Assembly (NCBI GenBank): GCA_018662005.1
Contig: JABJHA010000032.1
Span: 62,001 to 126,000, forward strand
Length of the DNA: 64,000 bases
Source of the DNA: Rhodospirillaceae bacterium
GTDB lineage: Bacteria; Pseudomonadota; Alphaproteobacteria; Rhodospirillales; JABHCV01
Direction of reading: 5' to 3'
Part shown: in pieces, positions 12,388 to 26,265 of the stretch
How positions within the stretch are numbered: the first letter of the stretch is position 1
Layout: every line of letters starts with the position of its first letter
Program-made: the position numbers and the translations under genes
The notes under the pieces: generated by a model
Told to the model about the DNA's origin: nothing
What the model saw: only the letters and a program-made list of their open reading frames with translations
Database searches by the model: none

Positions 12388-12509
12388 TCAGTCATGAGAG
12401 TCATAACCCGCCCGTACCATAAATTGAGGTCGGGTTCTTCTCGGTGACAGAGCTAGCTTTCCGCTGGCGTTACACTGAAGGAGAAAAACATGCCAATAGT
12501 TCAAGGCCC

Positions 12510-12917
12510 ATGAGTAACCTCGATCCAGACCGCCGGCAGACTTTGCTGGATTGGCAAGAGGCCTTCGGCTCTCCACCACCAGCTTATTTGTCAGTTGGGT
12601 TTATGCGCAAAGCACTGACCTATTTCGTACAGTGTAAGGCGTCGGGTGGCCTTCCTGCATCGACCCGAAAGATATTGATGCAGATTGCTTCTGGTAAATC
12701 GGCCGACCTGATTAATCCTGGTGGTATTAGGACGGGAGCACATCTGGTGAGGGAGTGGAACGGGCACACATATCAGGTTGAGGTTATCGATCGAGGTTAC
12801 CGAATGGATGGAAATTTGTGGTCATCCCTTTCCGCGATTGCCAAGCACATCACAGGCACTACCTGGTCGGGCCCACGCTTCTTTGGTCTTAACAGTCGTA
12901 CAAGGGAGCAGGTATGA
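12510..12917 (+). CDS. DUF2924-family protein, partner of the serine recombinase
   Basis: 135 residues. The family pattern is clear: W-x-x-x-FGSPPPAYLSVGFMRKALTY, then PGGIRTGAHLVREWNGHTYQVEV, GYRMDGNLWSSLSAIAKHITGT and WSGPRFFGL at the C-terminus. DUF2924 genes are regularly found directly before large serine recombinases in alphaproteobacterial prophages and islands. The role is not established; a recombination-directionality or DNA-binding function is a reasonable guess. The start at 12510 overlaps the stop of a seven-codon frame (12489-12513, MPIVQGP) that itself has a good AAGGAG site, so translation may be coupled through that leader. The stop overlaps the recombinase ATG (ATGA). Confidence 0.85.
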   Translation: MSNLDPDRRQTLLDWQEAFGSPPPAYLSVGFMRKALTYFVQCKASGGLPASTRKILMQIASGKSADLINPGGIRTGAHLVREWNGHTYQVEVIDRGYRMDGNLWSSLSAIAKHITGTTWSGPRFFGLNSRTREQV

Positions 12918-14554
12918 AGAAGATTCGTTGCGCCATCTACACTCGTAAATCTTCAGAGGGTGGACTGGAGCAAGAGTTTAACTCGCTGGATGCACAGCGG
13001 GAGTCCTGCGAGGCCTATATTGACAGTCAAAGGCATGAAGGCTGGGTATTGCTGCCGGAAGTTTATGATGATGGTGGATTATCAGGGGGCTCACTGAAAC
13101 GCCCAGCATTACAAAAAATACTGAAGCATGTGGAAGAAAAGCGCGTGGATCAGATCGTTGTTTACAAGATCGATCGCCTGACCCGATCTCTCGCGGATTT
13201 TGTCAAGATTGTGGATATTCTTGATGCTGCCAGGGCATCGTTTGTTTCTGTCACCCAGTCCTTCAATACCGCAACCAGCATGGGGCGACTTACCCTAAAT
13301 ATGCTCCTGAGCTTTGCGCAGTTCGAGCGTGAAGTAACAGCCGAACGCATCCGAGACAAAATCGCAGCCTCAAAGCGAAAAGGTCTGTGGATGGGTGGGG
13401 CGGTCTCCATCGGATATGACCCTGATGGACGAACCTTGAAGATTAATGAAGCAGAGGCAGTGACGATCCGAACTCTGTATGGTCTCTATGAGCAGCATGG
13501 ATCAATCAGTGCCGTCAGGGAAGAGGCAGAGCGACTTGGCCTGCGCACACGTCGTCGCGAATCAATTTCCGGAGATGTGAGCGGTGGCGGACCTTTCGAT
13601 CGGGGGCATATTTACTACATACTGACCAACCCGACCTTTGCAGGAAGGATCCGACATCGCAAATTGATCCATGATGGACTTCATGCCGCTATTATCGATC
13701 CGGAGCGCTGGGAGAAAATACAGGTCCAATTGCAAGATGGGGCGTCTCGATCACGCTCAATGACCACTGCAAATCAAAAGTCACTCCTATGTGGAAAGCT
13801 CTTCGACGAGACGGGTGATCGATTAACGCCATCGCATACGAAAACACGAAAAGGGATCCGCCTGCGCTACTATATCTCCCACCGACTGATGACCCGTAGT
13901 AGGAAAGCTCATCTTGATGCGTGGCGGTTACCTGGACCAGAGTTGGAGAACAAGAGCGCAGATGTGCTCAAATCTATATTCAGGGATCATGCTTTTGTCA
14001 TTGGCCTATCACCTGGTTCCCAAGCCGAAGAAATTGGAAGAATTCAATTCCGGCTATCGGAACTGAGTGATGCCGAAGACATAAAAGGCCTTATTCGTTT
14101 TATTGATAGAATAGACATTAGGCCTGGCCACATTCGGGTCAGTGTCAATGGGCCTTTGCTCGCTGAGGAGCTTGGTTTATCAGCAGATGCCATTAACAAT
14201 GAGATATTAACACGGAACTTCCCATTTCAGCTTAGGAAACGCGGTGTTGAAACAAAGCTCATCCTGGATGACAGCCCAACAGGCGTTGATGAAACACTCA
14301 TTCGAAACATTGCCAGAGCACATAGTTGGTTTGAGCAGATAATGAAGGGCAATACCTTCGCCGAGATTGCACGCACCCATGAAACTTCTCCAAGGCGTGT
14401 TCAGCAACTGATTGACCTTGCGTTCCTTGCACCAGACATTGTGCGCAATGTTCTGAATGGTAAACAACCCTTGGGGTTCACATCCAAGTGGTGCCTATTA
14501 CATTCCCTGCCATCAGATTGGGCAGAACAGCGAAAAATTCTCGCAACCCTCTAA
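12914..14554 (+). CDS. Large serine recombinase (resolvase/integrase)
   Basis: 546 residues. The N-terminal resolvase domain contains the nucleophile region CAIYTRKSSEGG (Ser13), LDAQRESCEAYI, YDDGGLSGGSLKRPAL and KIDRLTRSLADF. The recombinase domain follows (GYDPDGRTLKINEAEAVTIRTLY, ILTNPTFAGRIRHR), with a C-terminal tail of 250 residues. The zinc-ribbon cysteines seen in many family members are not obvious. Large serine integrases insert phages or islands at short att sites with strong directionality. With DUF2924 it forms a two-gene unit. It is likely the integrase that brought in neighbouring cargo, including perhaps the deazaguanine cluster 0.6 kb to the right, but no att pair could be identified by eye. 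Confidence 0.93.
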   Translation: MKKIRCAIYTRKSSEGGLEQEFNSLDAQRESCEAYIDSQRHEGWVLLPEVYDDGGLSGGSLKRPALQKILKHVEEKRVDQIVVYKIDRLTRSLADFVKIVDILDAARASFVSVTQSFNTATSMGRLTLNMLLSFAQFEREVTAERIRDKIAASKRKGLWMGGAVSIGYDPDGRTLKINEAEAVTIRTLYGLYEQHGSISAVREEAERLGLRTRRRESISGDVSGGGPFDRGHIYYILTNPTFAGRIRHRKLIHDGLHAAIIDPERWEKIQVQLQDGASRSRSMTTANQKSLLCGKLFDETGDRLTPSHTKTRKGIRLRYYISHRLMTRSRKAHLDAWRLPGPELENKSADVLKSIFRDHAFVIGLSPGSQAEEIGRIQFRLSELSDAEDIKGLIRFIDRIDIRPGHIRVSVNGPLLAEELGLSADAINNEILTRNFPFQLRKRGVETKLILDDSPTGVDETLIRNIARAHSWFEQIMKGNTFAEIARTHETSPRRVQQLIDLAFLAPDIVRNVLNGKQPLGFTSKWCLLHSLPSDWAEQRKILATL

Positions 14555-14891: not shown

Positions 14892-15061
14892 CAGTTTGGC
14901 ATTCAAAAGCATTGCTACCTGTGAACGTGCTCTACTTACAATTCCCTACATTTTTTGGCAACCGTCAATTTGCGTGGATTGAAGGGAATGCAAGTTGGTT
15001 TGGATGATATATTAACCACTGCCTTAGGTCATGTTTGCAATATGGTTATACTGAACGCAAA

Positions 15062-15084
15062 TTATCTCATCTTAAATGAGATGC
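15062..15084. promoter_or_regulatory. Palindrome TTATCTCAT-N5-ATGAGATgc, copy 1
   Basis: The 7-bp core arms ATCTCAT and ATGAGAT (15064-15082) are separated by CTTAA. The outer two positions match on the left arm only. It lies 122 bp upstream of copy 2 in the leader of the deazaguanine operon. A pair of identical-spacing palindromes before a first gene is typical of operators for a dimeric repressor. Confidence 0.65.
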
Positions 15085-15183: not shown

Positions 15184-15206
15184 TTATCTCATGTCAAATG
15201 AGATAA
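15184..15206. promoter_or_regulatory. Palindrome TTATCTCAT-N5-ATGAGATAA, copy 2, directly 5' of the first RBS
   Basis: Perfect 9-bp arms around GTCAA. The site ends 2 nt before the GGGGGAG ribosome-binding site of the first gene of the deazaguanine operon, so a bound protein would block transcription or initiation. It also contains the ATG at 15191, which argues that this ATG is not the true start. Confidence 0.7.
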
Positions 15207-15223
15207 ATGGGGGAGTTGCAGAG

Positions 15224-16384
15224 ATGGGATTACCGCCAGCACGGCTGCGTCACCAACTGGAGGCAGCAAGAACTGCGTACACTACCTTCGTAAATACTGA
15301 GAGACGAGCATCAGGTCAGGCGCTCGTTGCCTTATCAGAAATCTACGCATTTTCCCTTCAGGCAATTCACGACAACAGAATTCGTGATGAGTACGAAGTT
15401 AATAGGGTGACGGTGCGTGGCGATGCTGCCGCCAACGAATTCCTGCTTCCCATCAAGTACGCGATTGGCGAGGCTGTAATTGACCAGAATGGTAATATTG
15501 ATAAATGGACTTTTGACAGCACCAGATTGGGTGCTTACGGAAACATTTGTTATCACGCCAACTCACTTGGCATCACAGCCAACCAATTTTTAGATTGGAT
15601 TAGTGATAGGGAACGTGGTGGTGGAACAATTGCAGAAGCAAATCTTAGAGCACAACGAAGCGGAATACTTCCTGGTCCCGCAAGAATTAATCCTGATGCG
15701 GAAGATGCTGACCCAGTTGAGTACATAACCCAAATGCTAGGCCCGCGTTGGCAAGAAGCGGTCGGCAACATTCCAAACATCAAAATTAATATGAACAGGG
15801 CTGGTATAGGCCCGGGGCTTGCCCAACTGATTACGACCGTTGATGAAGACGGCAATGTGACAATTTTGGGTGTGTTGCCTATTGATCCGGATACTGTAAC
15901 GAAAGAACTTAAAAAGCTCCCAGGCATTCCAAGACCTCACGACATTCTCATTGAAGCGGCAAAAATGGCTGCTGATGCTGACGAGTTAATAATCCACAAC
16001 AGCCAGACGCAGGTGCTAGCGAAATTTGGTGAATTCACTTCGACATTGAGTGAGGAACCAAGTTCATTTCTGCCAGCAAATACGGTCATCATACTGGATC
16101 AAAACAGTATCAATGCCATTGTACAAATCGACAAAGATTTCAAAGACACAATATGGGAAATTAATGGAAACAACTTTGTCGTTTCAGTTCCAAATCAGAC
16201 CATAGAACAAGCCATGATGGATATTACGGCGGAACGAAAAAAGAAATGGAAGCTAAGACGTGATCTAGCCCGCGCTGCTGGCAAACCAGATCCTCATGTT
16301 GTTAAGCCATATGCATTGCCAGAAAAGTTAACGTCTAAAAATGGCAAGCTCCATATACCATTTACGGTGAAGAAAAATGGATGA
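15224..16384 (+). CDS. Unknown protein, first gene of the deazaguanine DNA-modification operon
   Basis: 386 residues from ATG at 15224, which has GGGGGAG 9 nt upstream. An ATG at 15191 lies inside the palindrome and lacks a site. I do not recognise the family. The protein is soluble, with no signal peptide or membrane segment and no visible P-loop, HTH or metal motif. The N-terminal 60 residues look alpha-helical (RLRHQLEAARTAYTTFVNTERRASGQ), the middle has GMGP-like loops, and the C-terminus is basic (AERKKKWKLRRDLARAAGKPD). It overlaps dpdA by 8 nt, the tightest coupling in the operon, suggesting a partner of DpdA, perhaps in DNA recognition. That is inference from position only. Confidence 0.8.
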   Translation: MGLPPARLRHQLEAARTAYTTFVNTERRASGQALVALSEIYAFSLQAIHDNRIRDEYEVNRVTVRGDAAANEFLLPIKYAIGEAVIDQNGNIDKWTFDSTRLGAYGNICYHANSLGITANQFLDWISDRERGGGTIAEANLRAQRSGILPGPARINPDAEDADPVEYITQMLGPRWQEAVGNIPNIKINMNRAGIGPGLAQLITTVDEDGNVTILGVLPIDPDTVTKELKKLPGIPRPHDILIEAAKMAADADELIIHNSQTQVLAKFGEFTSTLSEEPSSFLPANTVIILDQNSINAIVQIDKDFKDTIWEINGNNFVVSVPNQTIEQAMMDITAERKKKWKLRRDLARAAGKPDPHVVKPYALPEKLTSKNGKLHIPFTVKKNG

Positions 16385-17747
16385 AGATTTTACAGATTTT
16401 CATAAGGATTTTGGCGGACAGGCTTTGTTTCTGCCCAGTATGCACGTCAGTTATATCAACGCGATCTCAAAAGAAATTCGCGATATCCGCCCAGACTTCA
16501 ATCCAAGACATCTTGTCTCCATGCAAATGCTCAATTTCTTCAATGAGGAGCATGGGCTGTTTTTCTATCCATGGGCTTTGTATTCGGCGGGCGTTGCCAA
16601 TCTGGACATGGACAGAGCTGCTGAAACTGAAAGTTCCATATACAACAGGGATCGTGACAAAACATTTTTGATGGTGGACAGCGGCGGTTTCCAAGTCGTC
16701 ACAGGTGCATTGAAGATCAATGGCAGACCCTTTGACTGGGCAAACCCAGATGAAGGGAGAATGCAAATATTGCGATGGCAAGAGGCTATTGGCGATGTTG
16801 CCACCGTTTTAGACGTGCCAACATTTGCCATTCAAAAAGACACCCCATTCAAAACCTTCAACGATTGTCTGGCTCAAACCAACGACAATCTTCGGTTCAT
16901 TGACGACAACCGAACAAACAAGGTTCCATTCATCAACGTCCTTCAAGGCGATAATAACTCAGAAATCCAGCAGTGGTATGATGGTGTAAATTGGTTTCCA
17001 GCAAGTGGATGGGCTTTTGCGGGTGGCACAAAACTAAATCTCTACAATCTGCTGCGAACGATCATCATGTTGCGAGATGATGGAGCATTAGAAGGCGATA
17101 AAGGTAAGTGGCTCCATATTTTAGGTGTTGGCAAACCAGCTGTTGGTGCGGTTCTAACAATCATTCAGAAAGCCATACGAGAAAACGTAAATTCAGAAAC
17201 TATGGTAACGCTGGATGCTTCCAACCCATTCCAAGAAGCGGGCTTACGGGGAAGCATTCAACTTCATTACACGTTCTCCAACACACAGAAGGCAACAAGG
17301 GGAGTGACAGAGAATTTTGAAGACCTGCTCCCCTACTGCGACCCAGACAAGGGCATTCCAGAAGCATTTGGCCCTGTTTTAAAAACAAGCGGAATACCAG
17401 CAAGGGAAATCTTTATTCAGAATGCTGATGGAACATGGAGGAATAAAGAAAAGGATGGAAAACGGGCTTCTGATGCAATTTCCTACGCCACCATTATGGC
17501 CCACAACACCTACATGCTGCTGGATGAATTTCTCACCAATAACTTGATGTTTGCAGGTGTTGATGTGGATGATGGAACTATATTAAACGCAAAACTGAAC
17601 GGCATTGAGTTTGAAACTTCTACAGAGGCAAATTTCCACAAAATCACCAAAATCATAAACAAGGTTTTCAAAACTGAGCACACTGGCAAGGAATTGGAAA
17701 AGAACCATACCTTCCTTGAGAAATTTATAATCTGGAACCCACACTAA
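16377..17747 (+). CDS. dpdA: DpdA-like DNA 7-deazaguanine transglycosylase (TGT superfamily)
   Basis: 456 residues. TGT-fold landmarks are present in order: MVDSGGFQV (Asp101), INVLQGDN (189-193, like the GIVQGG loop of TGT), GWAFAGGTK (211-219), HILGVGKP (248-254) and TLDASNPF with Asp280. By alignment Asp101 and Asp280 match the general acid/base and nucleophile of bacterial TGT. The C-terminal zinc motif and tRNA-binding features of queuosine TGT are not seen. DpdA enzymes replace guanine in DNA with preQ0 or a related base, first shown for bacterial dpd islands and phages. The neighbours are four preQ0 synthesis genes, which supports DNA rather than tRNA as substrate. Identity as DpdA is strong by context, moderate by motif alone. 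Confidence 0.83.
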   Translation: MDEDFTDFHKDFGGQALFLPSMHVSYINAISKEIRDIRPDFNPRHLVSMQMLNFFNEEHGLFFYPWALYSAGVANLDMDRAAETESSIYNRDRDKTFLMVDSGGFQVVTGALKINGRPFDWANPDEGRMQILRWQEAIGDVATVLDVPTFAIQKDTPFKTFNDCLAQTNDNLRFIDDNRTNKVPFINVLQGDNNSEIQQWYDGVNWFPASGWAFAGGTKLNLYNLLRTIIMLRDDGALEGDKGKWLHILGVGKPAVGAVLTIIQKAIRENVNSETMVTLDASNPFQEAGLRGSIQLHYTFSNTQKATRGVTENFEDLLPYCDPDKGIPEAFGPVLKTSGIPAREIFIQNADGTWRNKEKDGKRASDAISYATIMAHNTYMLLDEFLTNNLMFAGVDVDDGTILNAKLNGIEFETSTEANFHKITKIINKVFKTEHTGKELEKNHTFLEKFIIWNPH

Positions 17748-17758
17748 GGATTTCACAA

Positions 17759-18379
17759 ATGGCGAATTCGGCAGTAGTTCACAGAGAAATTGGCATTGAT
17801 TGCGGTCATCGTGTTCCTGACCATGCTTCAAAGTGCCGCAGCCCACACGGCCACCGTTACAGAATCATCGCCACCTGTACTGGCGATGTGTTGGAAAAGG
17901 CTGGTGAAGCCGAACATGGCATGGTGATCGATTTTGGTCACATCAAGCAGTTTATGATGGACCTATTAGACGCCATCTTTGATCACGCTTTTGTCGTGGC
18001 TGGGCATGATGAAGTCTTAATGAATATGTATTTTCCTGGCGAAGATCCTGAGGATGTTATTACCCGCTACTTTGTAGAATTGGAAAATCAGTTAGAGGAC
18101 TATTGCCAGCAAATTAAGCGAGGCGATAATAAGCCCCAACCAATCCAGCTGCCCAAGACGCTTGTTAGCAAACAAGACCCTGATGGAATGAAAATTGTTC
18201 CTGTCAGTTACACGCCGACTGCTGAGAACATGGCAAAGCATATGTTTGAACTAATGGACCGTGTTATGAGCAGTTATTACAGGGCCGACCTAATTAGCAT
18301 GACCAACATTCGTCTTTATGAAACGCCAAACGGAAGCGTTGATTATCCTGCAGGCACAACGATTTTGGGTCTTGAGTAA
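17759..18379 (+). CDS. queD: QueD: 6-carboxytetrahydropterin synthase
   Basis: 206 residues, longer than the usual 120-140 because of insertions around 85-150. Zinc ligands are His17 (CGHRVPDH), His30 and His32 (SPHGHRYRI), and the catalytic Cys26 lies in ASKCRSPHGH. The acidic M-x-x-DFGHIK motif and the C-terminal ...IRLYETP segment are also present. It converts dihydroneopterin triphosphate to 6-carboxy-tetrahydropterin, the second step to preQ0. A conserved PTAENMAKHMFELM segment matches the PT-x-E-N-x-A signature of the family. It starts 11 nt after dpdA, and its stop overlaps the queE start by 1 nt (TAATG). Confidence 0.93.
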   Translation: MANSAVVHREIGIDCGHRVPDHASKCRSPHGHRYRIIATCTGDVLEKAGEAEHGMVIDFGHIKQFMMDLLDAIFDHAFVVAGHDEVLMNMYFPGEDPEDVITRYFVELENQLEDYCQQIKRGDNKPQPIQLPKTLVSKQDPDGMKIVPVSYTPTAENMAKHMFELMDRVMSSYYRADLISMTNIRLYETPNGSVDYPAGTTILGLE

Positions 18380-19224
18380 TGGCAGTTGTTTACTCTGAAT
18401 ATTTCAAAAGCGTTCAGGGTGAAGGTCATTATACGGGTGTTCCAAGCATTTTCATCAGACTGTTTGGCTGTAATCTGACCTGCCCAGGATTTTCCAATCC
18501 TGAAAATCAAGATATTGGATTTGACCCAGATGAATATCAGAATATTGAGGACATGCCTATCATCGAGCATGGTTGCGACAGCCGTTATAGTTGGGCTCCC
18601 GAGTTTCGAAATTTCCGTCATCAAGATGAAACTCAAGATTTATGTGATGACATTCATTCTCAGTGGGGTCCCTTCAAGCATCCCAATTCAAAACAGCAAA
18701 CCCACCTTGTAATCACAGGTGGCGAACCAGTCCTGTCTCAAAATGCTATAGCAGAAATCATTAGCGAATTTAGCAAACAACACAATTTTCCCAACTACGT
18801 CACAGTAGAAACAAACGGCACTAGGCCATTGCATGAACCATTCATCAGTACGTTTCAGCGCCTCTACAGCAATAATGAAACTGAGTGGTTATGGTCCGTA
18901 AGCCCAAAACTTTCAATCTCAGGGGAGGCATGGGAAGAAGCTATAAAGCCCGATGTTCTAGCTGCATATGCAGCCCTCTCCAACAAAGGCCAATTGAAAT
19001 ACGTTGTTGATGGTAGTGAGCAATGTTGGAATGAAGTTGAAAAGGCAACAAGTGCCTATCGTGCTGTTGGTGTTGATTGGGACGTTTGGATTATGCCTGT
19101 CGGCTCTACAAAAGAGCAGCAAGAGGAAGTTCAGGAAGCAATTTGCATTGAGGCAGTTGATCGCGGATACAATTTTTCTGCTCGGGTTCATTCATGGGTC
19201 TTTGGAAACAAGGTGGGGACATAA
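18379..19224 (+). CDS. queE: QueE: 7-carboxy-7-deazaguanine synthase (radical SAM), with split Cys motif
   Basis: 281 residues. The N-terminus YSEYFKSVQGEGHYTGVPSIFIRLFGCN is diagnostic of QueE, and ITGGEPVLS (112-120) is the SAM-binding GGEP motif. The [4Fe-4S] ligands are unusual: Cys31 and Cys35 are in normal C-x3-C spacing, but the third ligand is displaced. After a 30-residue insertion Cys66 occurs in GCDSRYSW, which matches the CDTKYAW that normally follows the third Cys. The enzyme contracts 6-carboxytetrahydropterin to 7-carboxy-7-deazaguanine. Start and stop each overlap neighbouring genes by 1 nt. Confidence 0.9.
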   Translation: MAVVYSEYFKSVQGEGHYTGVPSIFIRLFGCNLTCPGFSNPENQDIGFDPDEYQNIEDMPIIEHGCDSRYSWAPEFRNFRHQDETQDLCDDIHSQWGPFKHPNSKQQTHLVITGGEPVLSQNAIAEIISEFSKQHNFPNYVTVETNGTRPLHEPFISTFQRLYSNNETEWLWSVSPKLSISGEAWEEAIKPDVLAAYAALSNKGQLKYVVDGSEQCWNEVEKATSAYRAVGVDWDVWIMPVGSTKEQQEEVQEAICIEAVDRGYNFSARVHSWVFGNKVGT

Positions 19225-20195
19225 TGATGGCTAAAACACCAGTGAAGAAAACGACTAATCCAACAGTGAAAAAAGAAAAAGTAGCGCTGAAACGGCTTGC
19301 AAAGAATACTGCTGCAAAGTCCACAACACCTAGACGACCGAAACGGGCTGCCCCCATTAGATCAGCGGTAAGAAGCACCAAGCAAAGGATCAGAGCAAGA
19401 GTTGCGGATGACCCTCGTGTAGCGGAAGGTAAAATTCCGCTTATTGAAGGGTCACTTTCTATATTCAAAGACCCAAGTCAAAAAAATGTATGGAAGGCTG
19501 AACGTGCCCCTCGACCCAATGAACGCCGTCGCCAATTAAAAACTCTGGATGCAGTTACGATGGACGGCGCCATCATTGAAGCTATGAACCTTTTTTATGA
19601 AGACGGGTTTGGCCGTAAATCCCGCCGCATATCTGAGCAAAGGGCTATGGCAGCAGTTAGAGATCTAATTAGTTGGACTGGTGATAACCCAGATCGTGAA
19701 GGCCTCCATGGAACCCCAGATAGGGTTATTAGAGCATACAGAGAATGGTTCGCTGGATATGAGGCAAATCCAGATGAAATCCTGTCAACGACATTCAGCG
19801 AGACTGGCAATTACAAGGAAATGATCTCTCTTACGGATATTCCGTTTGAGAGCCATTGTGAGCACCATATGACGCCGTTCGTTGGCAAAGCTCATATCGC
19901 CTACATGCCTGAGCAACGAGTAGTTGGCATCAGCAAATTAGCAAGGCTGGTTGATGTCTTTGCCAAGCGTCTTCAAATCCAAGAAAAAATGACTGCCCAG
20001 ATTGCGGATACCTTGCAAATATCCCTCGTTCCTAAAGGGGTGGGCGTCGTCATCGAAGGAACTCATATGTGCATGACGACACGCGGTGTCAAAAAGCCAA
20101 ATGTCATCATGCGAACAAGCTGCCTACATGGCTGCTTTGATGAGGATACTAAAGTCCGTGATGAATTTTTTAGGATGATTGATAGCAAGGCGTAG
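19224..20195 (+). CDS. folE: FolE: GTP cyclohydrolase I with a long basic N-terminal tail
   Basis: 323 residues from ATG at 19224 (AAGGTGGGG upstream, 1-nt overlap with queE). The C-terminal 190 residues are a normal type I GTP cyclohydrolase: DREGLHGTPDRVIRAYREWF, FESHCEHHMTPFVGKAHIAY (zinc Cys212 plus active-site His214 and His215), VVGISKLARLVD and HMCMTTRGV (second zinc Cys283). It opens GTP to dihydroneopterin triphosphate, the first step to preQ0. The first 110 residues are an extra Lys/Arg/Ala/Pro-rich, probably disordered segment (AKTPVKKTTNPTVKKEK...RRPKRAAPIRS) like a histone H1 tail. Such a tail could bind DNA or RNA; its function here is unknown. Confidence 0.93.
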   Translation: MMAKTPVKKTTNPTVKKEKVALKRLAKNTAAKSTTPRRPKRAAPIRSAVRSTKQRIRARVADDPRVAEGKIPLIEGSLSIFKDPSQKNVWKAERAPRPNERRRQLKTLDAVTMDGAIIEAMNLFYEDGFGRKSRRISEQRAMAAVRDLISWTGDNPDREGLHGTPDRVIRAYREWFAGYEANPDEILSTTFSETGNYKEMISLTDIPFESHCEHHMTPFVGKAHIAYMPEQRVVGISKLARLVDVFAKRLQIQEKMTAQIADTLQISLVPKGVGVVIEGTHMCMTTRGVKKPNVIMRTSCLHGCFDEDTKVRDEFFRMIDSKA

Positions 20196-20199
20196 CAAA

Positions 20200-20616
20200 A
20201 TGTTGGCTTTCGATCTGGATGGCATTTTTATTTCTGAACTGGTGAAACGACCAGATAAGGAGCTGATGACTGTCATTACCGAAAAAGCCGACAACATCCT
20301 TCCCTTCTTTAAAATTGAACACCCCTATTATGTGATCACCAGTAGGAAAGCGGCTATTGCAAAGGATACACGGCAATGGTTTGAGGCGATGTTCGATCCT
20401 CAACATCAACCGCAAAAAATATTCCATGATAATGATGGGCCTGATAACGCCATTACCTATAAGGCCTTTGTTCTTAACAGGCACCCAGAGGTTAAAGTCT
20501 TCTTTGAAAGCGATTTAGAACAGGTGAATGAACTAAAAAATATGGTTCATTGTCCAGTTGTCCACTTTGATGAATTAATCAATTCCGCCATCAATCTGTA
20601 TGTTGAGGGACTGTAA
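20200..20616 (+). CDS. HAD-like hydrolase of unknown substrate within the deazaguanine operon
   Basis: 138 residues from ATG at 20200, 4 nt after folE; a TTG at 20179 overlaps folE and is less likely. HAD motif I is FDLDG with Asp5 (nucleophile) and Asp7 (acid/base), motif II is Thr47 or Ser48 in YVITSRK, motif III is Lys88 in TYKAFVL, and motif IV is Asp105 in FFESDLEQ. Length and the lack of a large cap fit a small phosphatase or nucleotidase. It might remove a phosphate from a deazaguanine or pterin intermediate, or process a nucleotide for DNA modification. Coupling on both sides (TAATG with the next gene) shows it belongs to the operon. Confidence 0.78.
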   Translation: MLAFDLDGIFISELVKRPDKELMTVITEKADNILPFFKIEHPYYVITSRKAAIAKDTRQWFEAMFDPQHQPQKIFHDNDGPDNAITYKAFVLNRHPEVKVFFESDLEQVNELKNMVHCPVVHFDELINSAINLYVEGL

Positions 20617-21461
20617 TGTTTGGGCCAAATCACAGCCCTCGCTATCACCACAGAGAACGGGATTTCAGCGAGCATTATGCCGACACGGCAAGATTATTCT
20701 GTGAATTCGCTGGAATTGATACAGATGATTGGGATGTGTTCTTCGTAACAGGCAGCGGAACCTGTGCAATCCAGACCATCTTATACAGCCTCAGTGACCA
20801 ACTTAATGTGGTCACAGAAGGTCATTTTTCTGATCGAATTAAGCGTTATCTGACCGATATTGGGAAAAAATCAAATTCCAGCTCTAAGACTGCAGGAGTT
20901 GTTTACGAAACTTCCATCAGCCATCTCAACGATGATCTGCCTGACGATATTTTCATGTGTGATTGTGTGTCATCCTTCCCCTACTACGAACCCAAGGGCC
21001 AAATATGGGCGACGGTGACGAGCAAGCAGATTGGGTGTGCTCCTGGGTTGTCCATCGTCGTTATGAAAAAATCTCTTTGGGATGATGGTTCAATAAATTT
21101 TGCTGATGAAAGTTATCTCTCCTTGGGTAAATTCAAGGCTAAACGTGAAGACCATCAAACTCCCCATACGCCAGCAATTACACTAATTGATGACCTGAAT
21201 GAAAAATTACGGAATTGGGATGCTGAACGCTTCCGCACAATGATTTCCAAAAGACGGAATGAACTTCTCATGCACATTCCAACTGATTGCATTATTGGAG
21301 ATGGACCTGTTCTCACACTTAAAGACGATGAACGGTCACGCGGTCTAACGACCCTATTCAACCTCTACAACTACAGTAGCGATGGCCCCCAAATTTTCCT
21401 TTGGTCAGGCACTGGCAAACAATATGACAAGCTCTATGAACGTTTGGGGGAGTTTTACTGA
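20616..21461 (+). CDS. PLP-dependent class V aminotransferase-like protein within the deazaguanine operon
   Basis: 281 residues, shorter than the usual 350-400. Features of the phosphonopyruvate/serine-pyruvate aminotransferase group are seen: an N-terminal FGPNHSPRYHHRERDF (like GPTPVP...R), FFVTGSGTCAIQ (46-49 GSGT, the PLP phosphate helix), Asp116 in MCDCVSSF (PLP ring nitrogen, like VDAVSS), and TSKQIGCAPGLSIVV with Lys137 at the Schiff-base position (the spacing to PGLS matches the family). The C-terminal small domain is reduced. It could transfer an amino group to or from a modified base side chain, or act as a lyase. No preQ0-pathway enzyme of this kind is known to me. Both ends overlap neighbours by 1 nt. 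Confidence 0.8.
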   Translation: MFGPNHSPRYHHRERDFSEHYADTARLFCEFAGIDTDDWDVFFVTGSGTCAIQTILYSLSDQLNVVTEGHFSDRIKRYLTDIGKKSNSSSKTAGVVYETSISHLNDDLPDDIFMCDCVSSFPYYEPKGQIWATVTSKQIGCAPGLSIVVMKKSLWDDGSINFADESYLSLGKFKAKREDHQTPHTPAITLIDDLNEKLRNWDAERFRTMISKRRNELLMHIPTDCIIGDGPVLTLKDDERSRGLTTLFNLYNYSSDGPQIFLWSGTGKQYDKLYERLGEFY

Positions 21462-22117
21462 TGAAAGTCTTAGGCCATTTAAGTGGTGGTTTTGACAGCG
21501 TGGCAGCTTGTGTACGGCTCTTAGAGGATGAAAACGAAGTCATGGGCGTATTCTTTGACCTTGGGCAGCCCTACCTCAAGCAAGAGGCTAAGGCTGTCGC
21601 ATATGCTTCTGACTTTTTCACGAGCAAATATCCAAACTGGCTTGGTTGTAGAACTGACAATGTTGCGATGGAGCTTCAAAGGGCAGCGGACGGTAGCCCA
21701 TCTGAATACATTCCCGTTAGGAATCTAGTGCTTGCTGCCCATTCTGCAAATATCGCTCTGGCTGAAGGATTTAATGCGGTGGCTGTAGGCAGCAAGACAG
21801 TCGAAGCAAGGCCAGATGACGATTATTCGTTTAATGATTGCTCCATCGAGTTCTTTGAGAAAGTCACAGACGTTGTGAGCTTCTGTTCAGAGGGTGGTGA
21901 TAGCGCAGAGTTCATAATGCCGCTTATTGAAAATCGCGTACCCCTCACCAAAGGCAAATGCGTCCAACTTATCCTCAATTGCGGATTGGACCTGACTAGG
22001 TTGTGGAGTTGCTACGAAGCGGAAGGACAAGCCTGTGGTAAATGTTATCACTGTAAGGAATTGATGATAGCATTTGACGAAATTAGCTACGACTACAGCG
22101 GCTATTTCTTAGGCTGA
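21461..22117 (+). CDS. queC: QueC: 7-cyano-7-deazaguanine (preQ0) synthase
   Basis: 218 residues, normal length. The PP-loop SGGFDS is at 8-13, YIPVRNLVLAAHSANIA at 83-99 is the QueC signature, VGSKTVEARPDDDYSF follows, and four zinc cysteines lie at C184, C192, C195 and C198 (SCYEAEGQACGKCYHC). It converts 7-carboxy-7-deazaguanine to preQ0 with ATP and ammonia. It is the last gene, and a weak hairpin (CTGGG/CCCAG near 22156-22172) may end the transcript. QueF, which would reduce preQ0 for queuosine, is absent, which again points to DNA modification rather than tRNA. Confidence 0.94.
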   Translation: MKVLGHLSGGFDSVAACVRLLEDENEVMGVFFDLGQPYLKQEAKAVAYASDFFTSKYPNWLGCRTDNVAMELQRAADGSPSEYIPVRNLVLAAHSANIALAEGFNAVAVGSKTVEARPDDDYSFNDCSIEFFEKVTDVVSFCSEGGDSAEFIMPLIENRVPLTKGKCVQLILNCGLDLTRLWSCYEAEGQACGKCYHCKELMIAFDEISYDYSGYFLG

Positions 22118-22251
22118 GTTTGATTTAAATCGCACCAATGAACTATTCAATTAGCCTGGGAATTCTGCCCAGATCCCTATTTTAACATGTTACCCTACTG
22201 GCCAGGTCAGGCAACTAAAATGGCTAACAATATGGTTTGACCTTTAGGTAA

Positions 22252-22274
22252 TTATCTCATTTAAAATGAGATAA
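22252..22274. promoter_or_regulatory. Palindrome TTATCTCAT-N5-ATGAGATAA, copy 3, downstream of queC
   Basis: Perfect 9-bp arms around TTAAA, identical to copy 2 in arms and spacing, 135 bp beyond the queC stop. With the two copies before the first gene it brackets the operon. It could be an operator for something to the right or a boundary mark of the cassette. Confidence 0.65.
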
Positions 22275-22275
22275 A

Positions 22276-22361
22276 GCAGACATTAATGTCTGGATTACCC
22301 CCTGAAAACGGACATAATCGGTAGGTGGTTGGAACTTCTGCTTTTAGCCATTAGCGGACAT
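22276..22361. repeat. Intergenic AGCGGACAT repeat, copy 4
   Basis: Contains GCAGACATTAATGTCTGGATTACCCCCTGAAAACGGACATAATCGG in pieces, followed by TTCTGCTTTTAGCCATTAGCGGACAT. It starts 2 bp after the third palindrome, so host-type repeat sequence resumes right at the edge of the cassette. The 22118-22251 spacer to its left holds only the weak hairpin. Confidence 0.75.
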
Positions 22362-23754: not shown

Positions 23755-26265
23755 TCAACCGAATGGTTTCCACAGCAAAATCAACTTTGGCAGCACCGTG
23801 AGTGCCGCCAAAAGGGCGATGAACATTGCCGCCCCGGTCAACACACCAAAATAGATCGTGGGGATGAAGTTGGACAACACCAGGCTGGAGAAGCCGATGA
23901 TGATCGTCACGGTCGTATAGACCATCGCTTTACCGATACTGGAATGGCAAATTTTCATGGTCTGCTCGTAATTGCGCGTATGGGCATACTCTTCCCTGAA
24001 ACGGTAGATGTAGTGAATACCATCATCGACGGCGATGCCGATGGTGATCGCAGCGATTGTAATGGTCATCATGTCCAGGGGGATTCCAACCCATCCCATG
24101 ACGCCCAAAATAACCCCGGCACTCAGCAGGTTCGGCAGAAGGCCGATAACAGCCAAGGTCATTGACCGGAACAACACCATGAACATGATCCCAATACCCA
24201 GCATCACGACCCCGATGGACTTGATCTGCGATGAGAACAGACTTTGCAGCATGTTGTTGTAAAGCACGAGCATCCCACTAACGGTTACGTCCTTGATCAG
24301 GAGTTTATAGTCGGCGAGCTGCTCAAATCCGTTCTCCTCGCCTAAGTCACGGCGCACTTTCTCCAGCAATTCCTTGCGGTGAAGATCCGGTTTTGAATCC
24401 ACTACACGCGTCATGACCCGTACTTCGTTGTCATTGATGGAGACGTATGGTTCGATGAGAATCTTTTTTACCGACTTAGGTATCTTGGTATACAGCAGGG
24501 CCATATCCATGCCATCCAGCTCTTTTTCGGCAATCTTTTCAACAACTCTGACCGATGATGCGAGCGAGAGCACCTTGCCAATTTCGGGCAATCCGTCCAG
24601 ATAGTCATGTGCTTTTTTGACGAGCTGGACCTTGGTCGGCGTAAACCATAATTCCGGCTGGGTGCGCAGCACTTCCATGTACGCACGTTCCTCCCGTATC
24701 TCTTCCTCGGTCATCTCTGCAAGATCTTCAGGTGTCAATTCTTCGACGTCATCCTCGAATTTTATCAGTATTTCCAACGGCGTTGTTCCGCCGAGTTCTT
24801 CATCGACGAGCTTGAGACCTTGATAAATTTCGGTGTCCTCGCTGAAGTAATTGATGAAGCTGTTTTCGACACGCAGCATGCTGATCCCCGCTGCGCTAAC
24901 GATGGCCAACAATACCGCTAAAACAAGAATCTTGTTACCCTGGAACTCGGTCAATCGCGCCAGATATTCAGGTAAGAAAAACCGGACCTCTTCAACGATG
25001 GTCGGAGGTTCGCTTTTTCTCATCATCAACAGCAGTGATGGAAACAGCAGAAACGAGGTCGCAAACGTCACCGCCAATCCGGCGCTCATCATCCATCCGA
25101 AGTCGATGACCGGTTTGATATCGCTGACAACCAGAGAGCCAAAACCGATGATGGACGTCAGCGCGGTGTACAGACAGGGTTTTACCATTTTATGGATGGT
25201 GGTTCTAACCAGCGCCAACTGATCGTCATCATGATGATCCCGATGCAGCTGTAGGTAACGCACGATCAAGTGAATGTTCATCGAGAGGGTGATAATCAAC
25301 ATCAGGGCAAGAAAATTGGATGAGATAATGGTGACCTTCCAACCGGTCAAGCCGAGAACCCCGATCATGATCAGTCCGGCGTAAAAGCAGCTGAGCAGGG
25401 GGAGCACGATCCAGCGCACTTTTCGGAAGATGGCGGCGAGTATGATAACCAGTAATACCAGAACACCGCCCCCGAAGACGATCAGATCGTTGCGCACGAA
25501 TGTCACCATGTCGTCGGAAATCATCGGCAAACCGCCGAGATGTACAGCGCCGTATTGGCGGTACGGCTTGATGATGTTTCTGATGTGGGAGATGTCCAGA
25601 TGACGCTGTTTGCTTACCGCTTCATGAACCTGATCGTATTCAGCCGAGATGCGTTTCAGGGTTTGCGTCTCTTCGGCCGAGAGACCGGTATCACGCTTTT
25701 TCTCCCGCAACTGGCCTCGGGACTTTAGCAAGCGATCGTACTGTTCATTCTCAACCAGTTCCAACAGCAGGGCAGTGGTTCGGCCATCCGTGCTGAGGAT
25801 GAGATCGCGGTAAATGTAGTTATTGATCAGCTCGTCCTTAGCCTCGGCCCGATCGATACCGGGTTTCTCCAGGCTCGGCATATCGTTGAGCATTTTCTGA
25901 ATATCTTGATTCGGGCTGTTGAATAAAGGGGCGTCGAGGATCGTGAACAGCGAGTTCACGCTGGCGACTTTCTTGATCTCGTCACGCAGTTTCTTCAAAG
26001 GTTCCAATGCCCGATCCGAGAAGAGATCTTCATCGGGTGTGTAGGTGACAATGAGCAAGTCGCTGCTCGGATATCGCTCGTAGATTTTCCGGAATACCTT
26101 GAGGTCTACATCGTCTTCTAGCAACAAGGTATCGGCCGACGCGTCCAGCTTGAAGTCTTTTGCGTTATAACTGAAGAAAGCCAGAATTGAGAGCAGCACA
26201 ACCAGGACCAACTTGGGATTGTGAAGCACCAGCGTGTCATAGGCTTGCACGATACGAGACGTCAT
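23755..26265 (-). CDS. RND-superfamily transporter (MMPL/HAE3 type)
   Basis: 836 residues. It has an N-terminal membrane helix (about 16-34), a large extracytoplasmic loop, a first five-helix block around 240-410 (VFGGGVLVLLVIILAAIF, ALMLIITLSMNIHLIVRY), another helix near 440, a second acidic loop, and a second block around 680-830 with GIAVDDGIHYIYRFREEY. The duplicated one-plus-five helix pattern and sterol-sensing-like domain fit the HAE3/MMPL family, which exports lipids, hopanoids or hydrophobic compounds. No adaptor or outer-membrane gene is adjacent. The substrate cannot be read from the sequence. Confidence 0.88.
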   Translation of the reverse strand: MTSRIVQAYDTLVLHNPKLVLVVLLSILAFFSYNAKDFKLDASADTLLLEDDVDLKVFRKIYERYPSSDLLIVTYTPDEDLFSDRALEPLKKLRDEIKKVASVNSLFTILDAPLFNSPNQDIQKMLNDMPSLEKPGIDRAEAKDELINNYIYRDLILSTDGRTTALLLELVENEQYDRLLKSRGQLREKKRDTGLSAEETQTLKRISAEYDQVHEAVSKQRHLDISHIRNIIKPYRQYGAVHLGGLPMISDDMVTFVRNDLIVFGGGVLVLLVIILAAIFRKVRWIVLPLLSCFYAGLIMIGVLGLTGWKVTIISSNFLALMLIITLSMNIHLIVRYLQLHRDHHDDDQLALVRTTIHKMVKPCLYTALTSIIGFGSLVVSDIKPVIDFGWMMSAGLAVTFATSFLLFPSLLLMMRKSEPPTIVEEVRFFLPEYLARLTEFQGNKILVLAVLLAIVSAAGISMLRVENSFINYFSEDTEIYQGLKLVDEELGGTTPLEILIKFEDDVEELTPEDLAEMTEEEIREERAYMEVLRTQPELWFTPTKVQLVKKAHDYLDGLPEIGKVLSLASSVRVVEKIAEKELDGMDMALLYTKIPKSVKKILIEPYVSINDNEVRVMTRVVDSKPDLHRKELLEKVRRDLGEENGFEQLADYKLLIKDVTVSGMLVLYNNMLQSLFSSQIKSIGVVMLGIGIMFMVLFRSMTLAVIGLLPNLLSAGVILGVMGWVGIPLDMMTITIAAITIGIAVDDGIHYIYRFREEYAHTRNYEQTMKICHSSIGKAMVYTTVTIIIGFSSLVLSNFIPTIYFGVLTGAAMFIALLAALTVLPKLILLWKPFG

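Follow-up and report, generated by a model that had tools for sequence, protein, structure and literature searches.

What would an enzyme dependent on pyridoxal 5'-phosphate (PLP) do in an operon for the 7-deazaguanine modification of DNA? The question is raised by a 64,000-nucleotide stretch of a Rhodospirillaceae bacterium genome (GenBank assembly GCA_018662005.1, contig JABJHA010000032.1, positions 62,001 to 126,000 of the forward strand; hereafter the window), in which the genes orf1-dpdA-queD-queE-folE-HAD-PLP-queC follow one another in this order at 15191-22117. None of the known steps between GTP and preQ0 is PLP-dependent, as an earlier interpretation made from the letters of the window alone (the sequence-only reading) had remarked and as the published pathway (PMC13329287) bears out. 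That reading placed the gene in a preQ0 operon; the 7-deazaguanine context holds, but the operon is better described as one that makes 7-carboxy-7-deazaguanine (CDG) and carries a divergent QueC. The gene under study is the following:

20616-21461, + strand: compact class V PLP protein, 281 amino acids, ATG start, frame intact

We propose, with a probability of about 0.42, that QueC activates CDG, that the PLP enzyme supplies the nitrogen nucleophile, and that a base other than preQ0 is placed into DNA via DpdA. This proposal is carried by the genes themselves, by the intact PLP-site motifs, by the 1-nt coupling of the PLP gene to both of its neighbours, by an altered QueC and by the replacement of a module relative to sibling operons. 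The fold and the coupling put forward in the sequence-only reading are confirmed and the replacement at the QueC step constitutes new evidence, while the chemistry and the product are what we infer; the earlier interpretation is thus supported in part, and the two roles it suggested, adding an amino group to a position-7 side chain or releasing ammonia, are candidate activities. A mobile operon in which the QueC step has been replaced by a HAD protein, a PLP protein and an altered QueC points to undescribed chemistry at position 7 of deazaguanine, and so perhaps to a DNA base not reported before and to nitrogen from a source new to QueC-type enzymes.

A compact class V protein with its PLP site retained

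The class V motifs singled out in the sequence-only reading lie exactly where it had put them. The Schiff-base Lys137 (in TSKQIGCAPGLS) and Asp116 (in DCVSS), the residue for the PLP ring nitrogen, line up with all the class V relatives aligned, and the phosphate loop is present as GSGT at 46-49 (S47, G48, T49). The residues of the partner subunit are also kept, namely Tyr167 and Thr185 of QTPHTPA (pattern Y..TPxTPA), and Arg13, Phe71, Glu98-Thr99-Ser100 and Ser119 are further residues shared with the full-length relatives. Although overall identity to the class V relatives is only ~25%, all the PLP-site residues are retained. Judged from these alignments the site is complete, partner-subunit residues included, and the 281-residue protein very probably binds PLP.

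The protein has no match in Pfam or PHROGs. Its similarity to a class V aminotransferase, PDB 3f0h_A, reached E=4e-7 with phmmer, the NCBIfam models for pyridoxamine-pyruvate transaminase (7e-7) and PhnW (3e-6) responded far under their cut-offs, and profile-profile alignment to three class V proteins reached E=2e-16 over ~193 columns. The resemblance to class V in these comparisons is beyond chance, and by homology the gene product is a class V, fold-type-I PLP protein. Scans of viral contigs provided two usable sequences for the class V alignment; those made with the HAD protein and QueC provided none. In-frame homology over ~190 columns ruled out a chance open reading frame or a frame error, and membership in the PhnW family (2-aminoethylphosphonate aminotransferase) was rejected at 27 bits against a cut-off of 360.8 for NCBIfam TIGR03301.

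A reduced small domain, also claimed earlier, is borne out, much of that domain being absent, but the shortening is not confined there: the large domain has lost ~30 residues between strands. The FRI(S/G) strand with its arginine is not recognisable either, and the C-terminus reads QIFLWSGTGKQYDKLYERLGEFY, in a region where the alignment is uncertain. In the aminotransferases of this group, this C-terminal arginine grips the carboxylate or phosphonate of the donor. Its absence suggests that the amine donor is something other than an ordinary amino acid, or else that it is gripped differently. At its borders the gene overlaps by 1 nt with the HAD-like gene (TAATG) and by 1 nt with queC (TGATG), as described before.

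An altered QueC

The downstream partner was compared with 37 other QueC-family sequences.

21461-22117, + strand: divergent QueC, 218 amino acids, assigned by Pfam QueC (9e-22) and alignments

Where E. coli QueC has Tyr35 (YxQxHxxE), the window QueC has Leu and all 37 comparators have Tyr; where it has Tyr131, the window QueC has Phe (FNDC in place of YPDC) and 35 of the 37 have Tyr. Two short insertions lie near the pocket. Of the corresponding E. coli mutants, Y35A and Y131A are dead and Y131F is partially active (PMC13329287). On the other hand, the SGGFDS loop, the Arg of IPVRN (VPxRN), the four zinc cysteines C(x)7CxxCxxC and the Asp of the CDG-binding motif, which recognises the deazaguanine edge (PMC13279940), are all retained. 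By its sequence, the window QueC is no ordinary preQ0 synthase. Since Gat-QueC proteins, which use glutamine-derived ammonia, retain Tyr35, its loss calls for more than a changed source of ammonia; the substitutions are most simply read as leaving CDG binding and activation in place while altering the entry of the nucleophile.

An accessory second QueC (203 amino acids) was seen in another context, on contig C53 of genome G000 (L111:9576-12500), after a PfkB-like protein and near a HhH-GPD DNA-glycosylase-like gene. It fits the uncharacterised 'Cluster 4' QueC with PfkB (PMC13329287).

Sibling operons and the variable step after CDG

Among 297 genomes of the order, 15 (source genome included) encode a DpdA of the window's family. 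In two of these genomes, sibling operons (L199 and L201) carry an orf1-like gene, dpdA, queD, queE and folE in the same order as the window, with 56-57% identity to the window in QueD and 55% in FolE (over residues 79-329), and a QueE of a type other than that of the window. Neither contains the HAD gene, the PLP gene or a window-type QueC, and L201 lacks queC altogether. In L199, folE is directly followed by a canonical queC whose middle has been lost by a large internal deletion and whose first 35 residues are 70-77% identical to the queC of related bacteria. The genes leading to CDG are thus conserved and the later ones vary; in the window the latter are HAD, PLP and queC, joined to one another by 1-nt overlaps.

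Considered from gene content, the trio HAD-PLP-QueC appears to have been substituted for the step after CDG, and we take this module replacement, seen against two related operons, as the strongest evidence that the PLP protein, QueC and HAD act together in the CDG step. The sequence-only reading had named absence of the gene from all related operons as something that would refute its proposal. The gene is, taken literally, absent from the DpdA loci compared; yet the nearest siblings lack the whole HAD-PLP-queC block, and the PLP gene is therefore part of a lineage-specific module and not a stray insertion. In Azospirillum picis, a relative of the HAD protein is encoded beside DpdA and the DpdA partner.

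Proposed mechanism

In the scheme that we favour, FolE, QueD and QueE would produce CDG, the carboxyl group of which would be bound and adenylated by the divergent QueC, as is usual for QueC proteins. Probably docked to QueC, with which it is co-translated, the PLP protein would make or deliver the nitrogen nucleophile, via transamination or ammonia release, replacing the free ammonia of QueC or the glutamine-derived ammonia of Gat-QueC. The HAD protein could dephosphorylate either an intermediate or the amine donor. At position 7, the product would bear an amide, an amidine or a substituted amide instead of being plain preQ0, and DpdA and its orf1 partner would put this base into DNA. Precedents exist both for a QueC-family enzyme with a nucleophile other than ammonia, namely Cap9 (PMC13329287, PMC13279940), and for a dedicated nitrogen source, Gat-QueC (PMC6884629). 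In a narrower version, which we regard as rather unlikely, QueC and the PLP protein would form a two-part amide synthase: an amine produced by the PLP protein and dephosphorylated by HAD would be coupled to CDG, and the resulting 7-carboxamide-7-deazaguanine, bearing a novel side chain, would be inserted into DNA by DpdA. If true, the base would be new to DNA and the pathway the first in 7-deazaguanine biosynthesis to employ PLP.

Several observations weigh against the proposed scheme. Structure prediction, which the sequence-only reading had suggested as a check, returned class V aminotransferases as the top PDB matches (3f0h at E 5e-10, TM 0.57), but the model is weak (pLDDT 49, pTM 0.54); it was built from an alignment of four rows that included class V relatives, and its match therefore supports the fold without being independent evidence; a single-sequence prediction gave a pLDDT of only 35. 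The missing substrate arginine could equally mean another reaction or low activity. The HAD protein of A. picis stands without a PLP or QueC gene in the stretch read. Moreover, no second genome with the PLP protein appeared in the sets searched, leaving the PLP-QueC gene pair with a single known instance.

Regarding this distribution, no close relative was found in viral contigs, phages or GTDB contigs, nor in sets of 60 related genomes, 385 genomes of the class and 398 of the phylum, which overlap in part; plasmids yielded distant full-length class V proteins and no compact homologue. Class V genes are lacking from all 80 viral DpdA loci, and the compact family is found next to DpdA in none of ~36 bacterial DpdA loci. 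Two genes in L213, ~6-7 kb from dpdA, are the sole class V genes in the latter, and they were discarded as family members for being full-length (390 and 409 amino acids) and of weak likeness only.

Alternative explanations

The alternative that survives best, doubtful as it appears to us, has the PLP enzyme working apart from QueC: QueC would yield preQ0 or an amide, and the PLP enzyme, together with HAD, would make or transaminate the precursor of a side chain added later, on the free base or in DNA. PhnW-type relatives act on small amines and often lie by nucleotidyltransferase or phosphonate genes, and PLP enzymes are known in phage thymine hypermodification, both of which would suit such a role. 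However, the PLP gene overlaps queC and not dpdA, no transferase or ligase besides QueC is recognised among the operon genes, and QueC itself is changed.

It seems unlikely that the gene is a decaying or structural aminotransferase remnant, devoid of catalysis, in an operon that produces ordinary preQ0. Against decay speak an open frame with close coupling to both neighbours and the retention of all the PLP-site residues despite the low identity, even though the shrunken domains, the lost substrate arginine, the singleton status and the carriage as cargo of an AT-rich mobile element are what a remnant would show.

Protein deazaguanylation in the manner of the type IV cyclic oligonucleotide-based antiphage signalling system (CBASS), in place of DNA modification, is improbable. 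QueC and a TGT-like protein occur together here, and Cap9 and Cap10 form such a pair, so that QueC would stand for Cap9 and the TGT-like protein for Cap10; nevertheless, the TGT-like protein clusters with jumbo-phage DpdA, the operon offers no clear substrate with an N-terminal Gly, and no CD-NTase or Qat protein is found among its genes, for which reason a type IV CBASS or Qat identity was rejected. Most improbable of all is that the PLP protein donates sulfur to QueC for a 7-thioamide base: a class V fold paired with a PP-loop ATPase does resemble known thiolation pairs, but the closest matches belong to the PhnW, AGT and pyridoxamine-pyruvate transaminase families and not to desulfurases, and a cysteine desulfurase (NifS/IscS) was rejected since the C-terminal loop lacks the catalytic Cys, cysteines occurring only at 29, 50, 115, 117, 141 and, finally, 225.

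The other genes of the operon

The remaining genes, all transcribed in the same direction, are as follows:

15191-16384, + strand: orf1, DpdA partner protein, 397 amino acids, of a DpdA-adjacent family of other Alphaproteobacteria
16377-17747, + strand: DpdA-like (TGT superfamily) DNA transglycosylase, with Asp101 (DSGGFQ) and Asp280; NCBIfam TgtA 1e-3
17759-18379, + strand: QueD, Pfam PTPS 1.3e-24
18379-19224, + strand: QueE of jumbo-phage type, phrog_2076 4e-58
19227-20195, + strand: FolE with a lysine-rich N-terminal extension, Pfam 4e-71; start at 19227 likely
20200-20616, + strand: small HAD-like phosphatase with motifs DLDG, TSR, K88 and ESD; no family over cut-off

The gene set of DpdA-type DNA modification is thus present, with the Asp101/Asp280 pair and FolE, QueD, QueE and QueC, and the host encodes a Tgt of its own. 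Jumbo phages (PA5oct, Phosso, Vibrio 2.275) and an Azospirillum plasmid encode proteins with 28-34% identity to the DpdA-like protein. Its partner, orf1, resembles a 504-residue DpdA-adjacent protein (L208:10772-12286; phmmer 9e-10 / 2e-12), and its placement next to dpdA matches loci L089-L101, L199 and L201. QueE is 31-45% identical to phage QueE and shares with it the shifted third cluster Cys (CNLTC...GCDS) and the Cys spacing. The small HAD protein is 38% identical (E=2e-23) to the A. picis one, encoded two genes from DpdA; a PhnW-PhnX-like catabolic pair was rejected, as the HAD is smaller than PhnX allows and also occurs beside DpdA elsewhere. The FolE region encoded at 19227-19680 opens with an N-terminal tail rich in Lys and Arg and continues with an additional segment partly common to the sibling operons; it could contact DNA or pathway partners.

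A probable mobile element around the operon

The operon has a GC content of 41-48%, against 50-58% across most of the window, and it is bordered by these sites:

15038-15082, no strand assigned: left-end site, a 45-bp repeat 76% shared with 22228-22272, with the palindrome ATCTCATCTTAAATGAGAT at 15064-15082
15186-15204, no strand assigned: second palindrome copy, overlapping the orf1 start
22160-22359, no strand assigned: right end, with the palindrome at 22254-22272; its 200 bp share 95% identity with the corresponding end of a second element, on contig C19

The 19-bp palindrome, ATCTCATTTNAAATGAGAT, occurs six times in the 3.5-Mb genome (window 15064, 15186 and 22254; C1:14413; C19:109 and C19:1023), with none for the reversed control and a chance expectation of 0.02 in the window. 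On C19 the palindrome lies at the right end that matches the one in the window. The C1 copy lies directly 3' of a gene for a 425-residue tyrosine recombinase, ~25%-identical relatives of which are found in DpdA loci of Azospirillum picis, Shinella fusca, Shimia and Thalassobius. Most likely, the operon is cargo of a tyrosine-recombinase element without an integrase of its own in the window, although the palindrome could alternatively be an operator. Contigs C1 and C19 both end within the same repeat.

Other mobility genes accompany these loci. A short tyrosine recombinase (~190 amino acids) recurs by DpdA loci L002, L088, L089, L090, L098, L199, L201 and L208, and a serine recombinase accompanied by a DUF2924-like protein is found both by a host queC fragment (L112, end of contig C10) and at 12444-14554 of the window, just left of the element. 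To its right, at 23755-26265, is an RND-type transporter gene, two copies of which (82% and 85%) occur in the genus relative G001. Several DpdA loci resemble defence islands because of their AAA-like ATP-binding gene (L201:13139-14857) or, in A. picis, a dynamin-like GTPase and a WYL-type regulator (L089:2930-6180). A conserved glycosyltransferase-like protein (MTVYVVPIEPIDTRYT...) is encoded at or near dpdA in jumbo-phage and some bacterial loci (L068:8780-9877, L056:12817-13887, L024:17051-18148, L196:7859-9028 and L096-L099), hinting at sugar-bearing 7-deazaguanines.

Comparison with known systems

The Gat-QueC/DpdA phages (phage 9g, MiCath, NP1-like) resemble the window operon in linking a nitrogen donor to QueC, but there QueC is fused to the donor, a glutamine amidotransferase domain, whereas here the donor would be a separate PLP protein beside a 218-residue QueC without a Gat domain. 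The class V aminotransferases 3f0h, 1m32 and 6pd1 (2-aminoethylphosphonate/alanine-glyoxylate type) have the fold and the PLP-site residues in common with the PLP protein, yet they comprise ~360 residues and the Arg of FRI(S/G), against 281 residues and no such Arg. Cap9 of type IV CBASS likewise combines the QueC fold with CDG recognition and uses an amine other than ammonia; in contrast, it acts on a protein N-terminus and has Tyr/Phe where the window QueC has Leu, and the window lacks a CD-NTase. Finally, CmoX/CmoY of phage S-B43 treat a base carboxyl as the handle for ATP-dependent amide formation (PMC12783734), as we propose here, but on cytosine, by ligation within DNA through an asparagine-synthetase-like enzyme, and without PLP.
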